Positions 12,677-28,707 of a stretch of DNA of 64,000 nt are shown here, in pieces. A model generated the notes under the pieces. The model saw only the letters and a program-made list of their open reading frames with translations. It ran no database searches and had not been told where the DNA came from. The translations under genes and the position numbers were made by a program. Each line of letters starts with the position of its first letter. Position 1 is the stretch's first letter. The stretch comes from Deltaproteobacteria bacterium IMCC39524. Its GTDB lineage: Bacteria > Desulfobacterota > Desulfuromonadia > Desulfuromonadales > BM103. The stretch is from the NCBI GenBank assembly GCA_029667085.1, contig JARUHJ010000003.1, positions 124,001 through 188,000 on the forward strand. The letters are read 5' to 3'.

Positions 12677-13238
12677 AAGTTGCCTCCTATATGTGGTTAA
12701 ATTTAATCGATATTGTCAATACAAGTTAAACATAGAAGAGAAACGCCCCTTTGGCAAGCAAGTTTTTTGTAAAAATTCTTATAAAACAGTATGTTATAGT
12801 CGTTTTCTGTTTTGCTGGGTAGACCGCTGGTTTAAGATGGCTTTTGTACACGGCGCTTAAATTCGCAAGCTCATCGGTTCGTGTTCCCTGAATATCGAAG
12901 AACAGGCTTGGTCAGAGGTTTTAACAGTGCAACCACTATTTTGTTTCGCAGATGTCCATGGTTCAGTTCAATCAAGTATAAAAAATCGTAGCAGGACAAC
13001 TTTTTTACTTCACGAACCATTGCCAAACTCTGTTTACACGGCTGTCGGCAGTTTTTAAGCCTTTAGGTAAGAGCAAGCCCCGGTTTTTTGGGTGCCTTCG
13101 TCTGCTTTTTGACCTCGCCAGGCAAAATAAGGTAATGTGCCAAGCGCTACAAAGCTGTTCATGTTAAAAAGCAATCACCGACTTACAGCTTCAGCAAAAG
13201 CATTAAGTGATGACAGGTACTTTTTACAGGCCTCCACG
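12677..13238. other. Intergenic region between divergent genes
   Basis: About 560 bases between the zinc-ribbon gene and the diguanylate cyclase. It must hold both promoters. A TATGTTATAGT stretch near 12790-12800 could be a rightward -10 element. I see no RNA gene or repeat, and no convincing reading frame. Confidence 0.4.
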
Positions 13239-14885
13239 ATGGACACCAAAGAACTGAAAATTGATTGGCTGTATCGCCTGAAGAAGAAAATGCTCTTCTC
13301 TCTTCTCGGCGTACTTACGGTGGCCATCTTGGTGACCATGGTCATTATTGCCGTTAATCTTCGTGACACTTTAGTTAATGACAGTAAGCTCAAAACCCGG
13401 GAGCTTGCGGTAACCATCAATTCAAATCTTCATTACCTGATGATTCTGCGTGCTCCCGAAGCCATTCAGGACACCCTGGAACATATTGTGGAGGAGAATG
13501 AATCGGTTCTTCAGGCGACCATATTGAACAGTCAGGGCAGCGTGACCTATTCCTCCGATCCGTCTCTGATCGGCATTACTTATGACCGTTATGAAGAGGC
13601 CTCATGCAGTGTCTGTCATAACCGTTCTGGAACAGAAACTGAATTTGATGCTTTGGTCTTGACGACAGGTCAAGAAAGCCATCGCAATATCTCCCTGATT
13701 GACAACGAGAAAGACTGTTACAATTGCCATGACCCCGCCAAGGAGACCATCGGCAAGCTGATTATCGACCGATCTCTTGAAACCACACATTCATTGATTC
13801 AAGAGATTCAGCTGATCCTGATTGGCGCCAGTGTCGTCTGTCTGATTATCCTTGTGCCGCTTTTTTCCAGACTCCTCTCAAGGGGCATCGACAAGTATAT
13901 CCTTGAAATCTTTACCCGGAATGAAGAGTTGCGGCTGCTCTATGTCATGGTTGAGCGGTTGAGCAAGACGCTGGATATGGTTCTGCTCAAAGAAATCGTC
14001 ATTGAAATCTTTAAAGACATACTGAATGCTGACGAAGTGACTTTAATTCTTGCGCGAGGAGAAAATGATTTCAACGGCTCTGAATGGACCAGGGAGAGCG
14101 GCAAGGTCGAGCGTAAAAACATCGCAGAGGATGAAGTTCTTAACCAGACCATGCAGGAGTGGTTATCGGGAGAGCTTGTGAAAATGAGAGTTTCTGCTGA
14201 TACCAAGCAGCTCTTCATGCCGATAGAGAAGGGCGTGCAAAGGCTTGCCCTGGTTATTGCCAGGAAAAAGGGCCGCTATTTTGACACGGAGCGCCTCAAG
14301 CTCTGCTCGGTTATCAGCAGTCACATCGCCTTTGCTTTCGATAATGCAAGACTCTACTATATTGCCATAACCGATGATCTGACTAAAACCTTTACCAGGC
14401 GACATTTCCGCCAGTGTATCGACCAGACTTTTATTGAACACCAACAAGACGGCCATAAGTTTGCCCTGTTGATGATGGACCTTGATAAGTTCAAACAGGT
14501 TAACGACACCCACGGTCACGTTGTCGGCGATGCCGTTCTTAAGCAGATTGGGGGCATTATTCATAGCTCGATACGGGAGAATGATCTTGTCTTCCGCTAC
14601 GGTGGTGAAGAGTTTGCCGTGATCCTGCCGAACACCAGTGAAAAAGGCGCACGCTATGTGGCCGAACGGATCAGGGCGACCACGGAAGCAGCGGTTTTCG
14701 AACCTGGGACAATCGATCTGAAACTGACCATAAGCATCGGCATAGAAACCTGTCCGGAATCTGCTTCGATTCATGACCTGATTGTCTCCGCGGACCAAGC
14801 GCTCTATGCGGCGAAAAAGCAGGGTCGCAATCGGGTCGTTCTTGCAGAGGTGGCACACGGGTTAGAGTCGGAGAAAGAATTATAG
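13239..14885 (+). CDS. Membrane diguanylate cyclase with periplasmic diheme c-type sensor
   Basis: Predicted redox or ligand-sensing c-di-GMP synthase. Counting from the ATG at 13239 (548 aa): TM1 at about 20-40; a periplasmic domain with two c-heme motifs, CSVCH (123-127) and CYNCH (160-164); TM2 at about 191-212; a GAF-like region; and a C-terminal GGDEF domain with GGEEF at 455-459. The inhibitory I-site RxxD is present as REND, five residues before GGEEF. The selectivity position in GHVVGD is Asp, as in c-di-GMP synthases, not Ser as in Hypr GGDEF enzymes. Starts at 13137 (GTG) and 13161 would add a polar extension before TM1 and are less likely. Downstream gene follows after 13 bases. 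Confidence 0.88.
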   Translation: MDTKELKIDWLYRLKKKMLFSLLGVLTVAILVTMVIIAVNLRDTLVNDSKLKTRELAVTINSNLHYLMILRAPEAIQDTLEHIVEENESVLQATILNSQGSVTYSSDPSLIGITYDRYEEASCSVCHNRSGTETEFDALVLTTGQESHRNISLIDNEKDCYNCHDPAKETIGKLIIDRSLETTHSLIQEIQLILIGASVVCLIILVPLFSRLLSRGIDKYILEIFTRNEELRLLYVMVERLSKTLDMVLLKEIVIEIFKDILNADEVTLILARGENDFNGSEWTRESGKVERKNIAEDEVLNQTMQEWLSGELVKMRVSADTKQLFMPIEKGVQRLALVIARKKGRYFDTERLKLCSVISSHIAFAFDNARLYYIAITDDLTKTFTRRHFRQCIDQTFIEHQQDGHKFALLMMDLDKFKQVNDTHGHVVGDAVLKQIGGIIHSSIRENDLVFRYGGEEFAVILPNTSEKGARYVAERIRATTEAAVFEPGTIDLKLTISIGIETCPESASIHDLIVSADQALYAAKKQGRNRVVLAEVAHGLESEKEL

Positions 14886-22035: not shown

Positions 22036-22252
22036 GGTGAACCTCCTTAGAAATCTTACTCAAAAGATTGCAAACTGCACACCAAGAAGCTTACTACTTG
22101 AAATCGTTAGTTTTACCCTGAAATAATGGAATAAAAAGCATGTTACGATGTAATTCGGTGACGATTTGTGTCGAATGAGACCGGAATATGCCGGCTTCCA
22201 AAGTTGGCTTAGTTCTCTGCGGCAAGGATGTTGAGGCCAAAGATTGGTTTCA

Positions 22253-26859: not shown

Positions 26860-28173
26860 TCACAACCCTCCGGAAAGAACTGCAATTTCTTCCTCTATGC
26901 CTTCGACGAGCTGCAATACTACTGGATAAAATGCATCTTGTTCTTCGGGTTCTGTGATCCAGTCGTTATTCGGATTGCCTCCGAATGATCCGTCGGCTTT
27001 AGCGAGAATGTCTTTTCTCAACTTGTTTGCACAATCGTTAAGAATGATAAGCTGATCACTGGTTTCGGTATCTACTGTAACCGTGTCGAGCTGTTCTAGA
27101 ACCGCTGTAAGTTTATTTGTAAGTGCATGGCGGCGCTGCTCAGCAGCGTTTTTAAATGCAACCAGAGGAACGTCTTGAGTCGATTCGATCAGAACCTGAG
27201 TTAAATCAACCAGCGAGAGCTCATCAAACTCAAAAGCGCCCACATCCGGTGCGGAACCTGAGTAGGCCAGTCCAATGTCGATACCAGCATCAATCAGCGG
27301 TGAGCCGCTCTGGAGATGATAATCACCAACCGCGCCATCGACGAACAATGGATCGTTCGAGGTGGTCGTCGTCAATGCGTTGATAACCGTGTAATAAGAT
27401 GGCGAGAAATATTCCCGAACGGTTGTGTCGCAATTCCAGAAGTTATTGTTTGAACCTACAACTTTGGGAGCCCAATAAAAACTTTTGTGGGTCGGTAGGT
27501 TAACGGCTACCGTACAGTTGCTGATCGATGTGTTGTTCAGAGTGACATTGGGTGACGACCTGATGTAGTCGATGTCGATCGCCATATAAACGTTATCGAT
27601 AGTGACATTGTTGCAAATTACCCGACCACTGTTATATCCGCCGATGGCGTACCGCATGTTTTTGAAGACTGTCTTGGTCACTGTGGTCTGAGATCCATAA
27701 AATGCATTAATGCCAAAGGTTCCGCCGTCAAGAATGCAGTTGTCGACGATGCAGTCGCTGATAAATCTGAAATAAGCTCTGTTTCTGGAATAAATCAAGT
27801 TTCCCGCATTTCTGATAGTGAAACCTGCGATGTCGATTCTTGAACCACCCACGCCGCCATTATAAGGAGAAATGATTGCTGCATAACTACCCATGCCGTC
27901 GATAATTGTCACTTCCGGGCCTTGTTCTCCAACCACCTTGACACGATGATTCATTTCAAGGGGGCCGTAATATATACCAGGGGCGACCGAAACCGTATCC
28001 CCGCCGACTGCAGAATAGATGGCTGGTTGGAGTTCTTTAAACGGATATGCTTGGCTACCATCCTCAATGCCAGTGTCATTTTTTGCATCGACATAAACTG
28101 TTGCAGCAAAAACAACGCTAACAAAGAAGAGTTGGAGAACTAAGCATGATGCCAAAACAATTAACTTTTTCAC
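26860..28173 (-). CDS. Secreted right-handed beta-helix (DUF1565-like) protein under riboswitch control
   Basis: 437 residues from a GTG at 28173, which an excellent AGGGAGG five bases upstream supports; a longer frame to 28305 would translate the terminator hairpin. Signal peptide VKKLIVLASCLVLQLFFVSVVFAA, then YVDAKNDTGIEDGSQAYPFKEL, the usual DUF1565 opening, and parallel beta-helix rungs rich in NNVTIDNV / LNNTSISNCTV patterns to about residue 330 with APDVGAFEFDE. The C-terminal 100 residues form a helical tail (QVLIESTQDVPL ... LVEGIEEEIAVL). Beta-helix proteins of this kind bind or cleave polysaccharides or act as surface structures; no catalytic residues are evident. The leader carries a GEMM-type riboswitch and terminator. 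Confidence 0.78.
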   Translation of the reverse strand: MKKLIVLASCLVLQLFFVSVVFAATVYVDAKNDTGIEDGSQAYPFKELQPAIYSAVGGDTVSVAPGIYYGPLEMNHRVKVVGEQGPEVTIIDGMGSYAAIISPYNGGVGGSRIDIAGFTIRNAGNLIYSRNRAYFRFISDCIVDNCILDGGTFGINAFYGSQTTVTKTVFKNMRYAIGGYNSGRVICNNVTIDNVYMAIDIDYIRSSPNVTLNNTSISNCTVAVNLPTHKSFYWAPKVVGSNNNFWNCDTTVREYFSPSYYTVINALTTTTSNDPLFVDGAVGDYHLQSGSPLIDAGIDIGLAYSGSAPDVGAFEFDELSLVDLTQVLIESTQDVPLVAFKNAAEQRRHALTNKLTAVLEQLDTVTVDTETSDQLIILNDCANKLRKDILAKADGSFGGNPNNDWITEPEEQDAFYPVVLQLVEGIEEEIAVLSGGL

Positions 28174-28178
28174 TATAA

Positions 28179-28185
28179 CCTCCCT
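28179..28185 (-). promoter_or_regulatory. Ribosome binding site that fixes the GTG start of the beta-helix gene
   Basis: AGGGAGG on the minus strand with five bases to the GTG at 28173. No comparable site exists for the longer ATG frame at 28305. Confidence 0.75.
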
Positions 28186-28231: not shown

Positions 28232-28268
28232 AAAGCAAAAACCCACCTTCGTTGACAAAGGTGGGTAG
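28232..28268 (-). terminator. Riboswitch-associated terminator in the beta-helix leader
   Basis: On the minus strand, ACCCACCTTTGTCAACGAAGGTGGGT is followed by TTTTGCTTTT. The stem CCCACCTT/AAGGTGGG is GC-rich. It sits between the GEMM aptamer and the ribosome binding site, as expected for an expression platform acting by transcription termination. Confidence 0.85.
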
Positions 28269-28299
28269 AACTCTTGTTCCCCTCCAAAAAAAGCCAAAG

Positions 28300-28393
28300 C
28301 TGCAACGCTCTTCGGTAGCCCAGCCATCCAAAATTATGGACCTGAAACTTTGCGCCCCTGCATTACTACAGATTTGCTCTTCTCGGAGTGATT
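28300..28393 (-). promoter_or_regulatory. GEMM-I cyclic-dinucleotide riboswitch, likely cAMP-GMP (GEMM-Ib) type
   Basis: The minus strand shows the conserved GEMM segments in order: AGAGCAAATCT, a 10-base loop region, AGGGGCGCAAAG, TTTCAGGTCC, loop, GGATGGCTGGGCTACCGAAG. Compared with the V. cholerae Vc2 aptamer (AGGGCAAACC ... GGACGCAAAG ... GGTAGC-GGGGTTACCGA), the nucleotide equivalent to G20 is A (complement at 28378). The G20A change marks the GEMM-Ib class selective for 3',3'-cGAMP. The assignment rests on eye alignment, with no covariance-model score. Confidence 0.75.
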
Positions 28394-28587
28394 AAATTAA
28401 TTTTAAAGACAACTTTAGCACAAGTTCATAAAATAATTCAAACAATTTTAATCCACGTGCCACAGGTTAAACAAAGGGCTTAAAATCTTGATGCCCTGGC
28501 AGGATAACTGTAGGGAGTTTCTAACACTGAAAATGGGGAAGAGAAACAAAGCTTGGCACCTATCTTGGCACCCACAAGAATAAAAAA

Positions 28588-28628
28588 GAAAACGGGAACT
28601 TAAGTCAGTGACCTAAGTTCCCGTTTTT
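28588..28628. terminator. Terminator after tRNA-Asn
   Basis: AAAACGGGAACTTA pairs with TAAGTTCCCGTTTTT across an 11-base loop, directly beyond the 3' end of the leftward tRNA. Confidence 0.9.
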
Positions 28629-28631
28629 GCT

Positions 28632-28707
28632 TGGCTCCGCCTGCTGGGCTCGAACCAGCGACAAGCGGATTAACAGTCCGCTGCTCTACCAACTGAGCTA
28701 AGGCGGA
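28632..28707 (-). tRNA. tRNA-Asn (anticodon GTT)
   Basis: On the minus strand the acceptor arm is TCCGCCT/AGGCGGA, the D-arm is GCTCAGTTGGTAGAGC, the anticodon stem-loop is GCGGACTGTTAATCCGC with anticodon GTT, and the T-arm is CTGGTTCGAGCCCAG. An encoded CCA ends the gene at 28632. Cloverleaf pairing is complete. A terminator follows immediately. No integrase gene lies next to it. Confidence 0.97.

Follow-up and report, generated by a model that had tools for sequence, protein, structure and literature searches.

A GEMM-I riboswitch with adenine at position 20 and an anti-aptamer segment preceding a secreted beta-helix protein gene of a Desulfuromonadales bacterium

The window considered here is a stretch of 64,000 nucleotides from the genome of a Desulfuromonadales bacterium (Deltaproteobacteria bacterium IMCC39524, contig JARUHJ010000003.1). 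On its minus strand, a leader containing an aptamer and a terminator precedes the coding sequence of a secreted beta-helix protein. The features, in window coordinates, are as follows:

26860-28173, minus strand: secreted beta-helix protein of 437 aa, with a GTG start at 28173-28171 (translation, domain matches)
28179-28185, minus strand: ribosome-binding site AGGGAGG, 5 nt before the GTG (sequence)
28241-28266, minus strand: intrinsic terminator ACCCACCTTTG-TCAA-CGAAGGTGGGT of 11 bp with a 4-nt loop and a T tract downstream (terminator scan; -17.3 kcal/mol)
28260-28285, minus strand: possible antiterminator hairpin GGAGGGGAAC-AAGA-GUUCUACCCACC, overlapping the terminator 5' arm (-7.6 kcal/mol; putative role)
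28282-28299, minus strand: anti-aptamer segment CUUUGG-CUUUUUUU-GGAG (pairing kept in the homologous elements L062 and L063)
28311-28388, minus strand: GEMM-I (c-di-GMP-I) aptamer, A20/G21-C46/A47/C92 (RF01051 covariance model; pocket by eye)
28376-28388, minus strand: 5' P1 strand CUCCGAGAAGAGC, capturable by the anti-aptamer segment (13-bp duplex with 28294-28282)
28412-28441, minus strand: possible promoter TTGAAT-N18-TAAAGT (seen by eye alone; the consensus scan yielded no promoter on the minus strand)

By inspection, the N-terminus of the 437-aa product is a signal peptide of the Sec type. Its beta-helix matches are weak, with PF07602 (DUF1565) just over the cut-off and PF13229 (Beta_helix) just under it, and include partial matches to NosD and pectate-lyase types and a tail-spike match (E=0.001). 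An AlphaFold model built without an alignment was of low confidence (pLDDT 42), too poor for a fold search. No clear ortholog was found in 57 related genomes, which yielded weak local matches only. An earlier note on this DNA had described a secreted beta-helix product behind a strong terminator, a good ribosome-binding site and a GTG start; all three leader elements are found (28266-28241, 28185-28179 and 28173-28171, respectively), and the description of the product agrees with the N-terminus and, weakly, with the domain matches. The neighboring region (28555-28707) contains a tRNA-Asn gene (28707-28635), then a strong terminator (28627-28589) and then a direct repeat, GGTGCCAAG. Since the beta-helix gene is without a clear ortholog in relatives, the tRNA-Asn/repeat site could be an integration scar.

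The aptamer matches RF01051 at 28388-28311 on the minus strand over the full model, scoring 54.6 bits where the gathering cut-off is 35 (E=6.7e-8 in the window search). It reads CUCCGAGAAGAGCAAAUCUGUAGUAAUGCAGGGGCGCAAAG...GGGCUACCGAA in the 5' to 3' direction and shares with the c-di-GMP-I/GEMM-I family the conserved pocket and the P2/P3 layout. The difference is at position 20, where the family has G and the window element has A: this residue, at 28378, occupies model column 11, the equivalent of Vc2 G20. In the alignment, read by eye, A47 (28351) and C92 (28315) are both in place and the core pair at 28377/28352 is G21-C46. P3 contains several G-U pairs. The leader fold is better than that of 200/200 dinucleotide shuffles (z=-5.0). 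The earlier note had claimed a GEMM aptamer on this strand with A at the Vc2 G20 equivalent and had named an Rfam covariance scan as a check; both claims are borne out, the match being well over the gathering score. The c-di-GMP-I-GGC variant (RF03167) was rejected, with 52.4 bits versus a gathering score of 59 and a consensus G at position 47, where the window element has A. The GEMM-I riboswitch in the beta-helix gene leader is real and probably functional.

The terminator begins 45 nt past the aptamer end and does not overlap it. Between the two sits CUUUGG-CUUUUUUU-GGAGGGG, with the potential to pair with each of the P1 strands: CUUUGG (28299-28294) complements CCGAAG of the P1 3' strand (28315-28310) over 6 bp, and GCUUUUUUUGGAG (28294-28282) complements the 5' P1 strand over 13 bp (-17.9 kcal/mol; z=-4.8 versus shuffled platforms). 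Once the segment has been transcribed, the anti-aptamer fold has the lowest energy, and the candidate antiterminator hairpin belongs to the free-platform fold until the terminator is nearly complete. In equilibrium folding, the terminator forms with a probability of ~1.0 whether or not the aptamer is present, and any coupling must run through the anti-aptamer segment, which the earlier note does not mention. The proposal of that note that the terminator makes ligand binding an on/off switch oversimplifies matters: the terminator is real, its control by the ligand is putative, and its independence of the aptamer at equilibrium sets it apart from the pilM/Geobacter architecture.

When 136 genomes of the order were searched for the pattern, the anti-aptamer layout was confirmed in three, namely, the host, G005 (element L062) and G011 (L063); G031 contributed a fourth, candidate match. 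By this search the platform is uncommon. Several bases of the target strand are changed in L062 and L063, yet the pairing is kept (10 and 12 bp, respectively), as is the terminator stem, and the P3 tip pairing survives base changes. The gene after L062 is unrelated and encodes a small protein whose N-terminus resembles a signal peptide. In both homologs, a G-rich run between the anti-aptamer segment and the terminator is followed by an ATG with a very short reading frame that covers the terminator 5' arm. A leader peptide over the terminator was rejected, as the ATG after the G-rich run has no counterpart in the window element. Also rejected was a weak first terminator (CCGAAG...CUUUGG plus a T7 run, 28315-28286), which would act as a pilM-like ON switch; its stem has only -4.9 kcal/mol and its U run is not kept in L062.

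The reading that we favor, tentatively and at slightly less than an even chance, is a transcriptional ON switch working through a weak antiterminator, with cGAMP and/or c-di-GMP as the ligand. Without ligand, the anti-aptamer segment would invade P1, GGAG would be consumed and the terminator would form, leaving the gene OFF. With ligand bound, P1 would be locked and GGAGGGG freed to pair with CCCACC of the terminator 5' arm (the hairpin GGAGGGGAAC/GUUCUACCCACC), resulting in read-through. The intact pocket, the 13-bp anti-aptamer pairing, its conservation in L062 and L063, the order of folding and the Hypr GGDEF enzymes of the host are consistent with this model, and the known cGAMP switches of G. 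sulfurreducens are activating (PMC6456294). Against it stands the energy of the antiterminator, -7.6 versus -17.3 kcal/mol for the terminator; because the terminator forms in both states at equilibrium, ON switching would have to be kinetic. Furthermore, the platform is common to three sequences only, and other G21-C46 elements look to be of the Cd1 kind, pointing to OFF. The direction of the switch is not decided by equilibrium folding: ON is our best guess and OFF is less probable.

The opposite sign would follow if the element were a ligand-OFF switch of the Cd1 type, in which aptamer and terminator coexist and the ligand favors termination, such that a high level of second messenger would repress the gene. 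Cd1 of Clostridioides difficile is a c-di-GMP-I OFF switch with a separate downstream terminator, whereas in the pilM ON architecture the terminator stem is made from the aptamer 3' strand (PMC9262584). A survey of the genus covered 152 GEMM-I elements in 11 genomes; 86 elements have the G21-C46 core and 60 the flipped C21-G46 core. The terminator is built from the aptamer 3' strand in 53 of the 58 C21-G46 elements with a detected terminator and is separate and downstream in 68/80 of the G21-C46 elements (Fisher p=2e-20 for core type versus geometry). With its terminator wholly downstream and no pilM-type overlap, the window element belongs to the G21-C46 group and resembles Cd1, in which aptamer and terminator can likewise coexist. 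In folding of 67 G21-C46 elements, letting the aptamer unfold lowered the predicted terminator in 13 and raised it in one, which also speaks for the OFF reading. However, the P1 complements of the window element are detached from the terminator hairpin, whereas similar complements lie inside it in L018 and in L134 of G010; the ligand-free fold thus leaves the terminator unblocked and the Cd1 logic does not follow. By equilibrium folding, the predicted terminator probability is ~1.0 with or without the aptamer, which speaks, though not decisively, against a Cd1-type OFF switch; we regard such a switch as rather unlikely.

The host genome contains 13 GGDEF domains, two of them with Ser for Asp at the selectivity position and an intact GGDEF motif, the combination described for Hypr enzymes (PMC6456294). 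One of these proteins (L039; 457 aa) consists of a receiver and a GGDEF domain and is followed, in our own reading, by a hisS-like ORF. Its best PDB match is 6d9m, which we take to be a Geobacter metallireducens GacA construct, with 167.6 bits (next, 125.7) and Ser aligned to Ser. Named relatives of the host Hypr protein come from Desulfuromonadales MAGs and isolate IMCC39146. Orthologs of the first Hypr protein occur in 9/10 congeners, with Ser and, in the cross-dimer position, His instead of Arg. Nine congeners, among them G002, which lacks the first protein, have a confirmed second Hypr-type paralog. Given these Ser-type enzymes, cGAMP is probably made by the host. The earlier note had called for a Hypr GGDEF in this genome; two Ser-type proteins are found, one of them GacA-like, and an objection from absence is not applicable. 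The window itself encodes a GGDEF protein of the c-di-GMP type (13137-14885, plus strand), in which the selectivity site is the canonical Asp and the motif reads GGEEF; it lies 13 kb away from the riboswitch.

Of the first 16 aptamer columns, position 20 is the most labile between orthologs of the G21-C46 type. A20 is present on 48/86 G21-C46 cores versus 6/60 C21-G46 cores (Fisher p=1e-8, indicative only, since the elements are mutually related). Among 57 reciprocal-best ortholog pairs of the G21-C46 type, which are not independent, position 20 differs in 14, the maximum among the first 16 columns, and columns 21-24 are identical throughout. For instance, L012 and L111 of G005 share 97% identity across 275 nt, a stretch that extends into the same downstream gene, and have G and A, respectively, at position 20. 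Either ligand flips are frequent in G21-C46 orthologs, or A and G are nearly neutral with both ligands bound. Both close homologs of the full element, L062 and L063, have G20, which favors a c-di-GMP ancestry. In A20 aptamers from elsewhere, cGAMP binding is gained and c-di-GMP binding may be retained; one from Desulfobacca acetoxidans bound cGAMP markedly better and c-di-GMP perhaps slightly less well (PMC9481103). In the solved Geobacter cGAMP riboswitch, the ligand contacts A14 and C15, and P2 has the pair C15-G40 (PMC6274999). Our alignment places these residues as A20 on a C21-G46 core, unlike the G21-C46 core of the window element. The Vc2 G20A mutant aptamer is alike in having A20 on a GEMM-I aptamer with G21-C46; the window element differs from it in being natural, in its P2/P3 and in having its own platform. 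PDB entry 4YB1 is reportedly the cGAMP-bound structure of this mutant. The predicted ligand of the window riboswitch is cGAMP, c-di-GMP or both; given A20 together with the G21-C46 core, mixed specificity is no less likely than strict selectivity for cGAMP. Given the Vc2-like core and the A/G toggling between orthologs, A20 alone is not a safe marker of a cGAMP switch.

These data bear directly on the interpretation of the earlier note, a cGAMP-selective GEMM-Ib switch of a surface regulon tied to extracellular electron transfer. A strict cGAMP ON switch of this Geobacter-like kind is supported by A20, the GacA-like Hypr enzymes and the secreted product, and the element resembles the Geobacter GEMM-Ib riboswitches (pgcA/GSU1761, pilM) in A20, A47, C92, the terminator-based leader and the presence of a Hypr enzyme. 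Nevertheless, the core is G21-C46 and not C21-G46 as in the solved riboswitch (PMC6274999), position 20 toggles between orthologs, the homologs have G20, the terminator does not overlap the aptamer and the target is neither a cytochrome nor a pilus gene. None of the 11 A20/G21-C46 elements in the host genome precedes a gene for a CXXCH protein, i.e., no c-type cytochrome is found among their targets, and the proposed electron-transfer link is not supported. CXXCH occurs in the first gene of 4/38 host GEMM-I elements (L006, L010, L014 and L024), with gene starts chosen by a simple score. Thus, A20 and the Hypr enzymes of the earlier reading hold, the core and the homologs speak against its selectivity, and strict cGAMP control of such a regulon appears distinctly unlikely.

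Genome-wide, the host has 38 GEMM-I matches, 36 of them over the cut-off. Four lie within 3 kb at G000:C1:20949-23925 (L004, L005, L050 and L026), and the match at 22079 in this cluster is below the cut-off, with a degenerate core having AA at positions 21-22. L001 and L047 are without a terminator within 150 nt and may act on translation. The window element, with 54.6 bits, is below most host elements (range 30-80 bits), and its several P3 G-U pairs, the independence of the terminator from the aptamer at equilibrium and the absence of a clear ortholog of the gene in 57 related genomes would also fit a decaying or weak element that persists without terminator control, with expression by leakage or from another promoter, but the pocket is intact, the P3 tip still pairs although bases there differ from those of L062 and L063, and the anti-aptamer complementarity is far above chance, making decay the least probable explanation.

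With this riboswitch, a secreted beta-helix protein joins the cyclic-dinucleotide regulon of a Desulfuromonadales bacterium. The locus also calls for caution, as A20 by itself is not readable as cGAMP specificity; the near-identical natural A20/G20 pair in front of one gene (L012 and L111 of G005) allows a test of whether the ligand switches or the position is neutral. Of greater interest is a side result, the pattern across the population, in which core type goes with terminator geometry and, of the columns compared, none is as labile as position 20. The genus might conceivably harbor two GEMM-I lineages, one C21-G46 and pilM-like ON, the other G21-C46, Cd1-like, A20-rich and toggling, with the window element, by virtue of its detached anti-aptamer segment, a further sign-inverted variant, although we consider this scheme unlikely as a whole. 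If A20 confers cGAMP binding on G21-C46 cores, these elements would constitute a large, fast-evolving cGAMP-responsive set, with a sign opposite to that of the known Geobacter switches.
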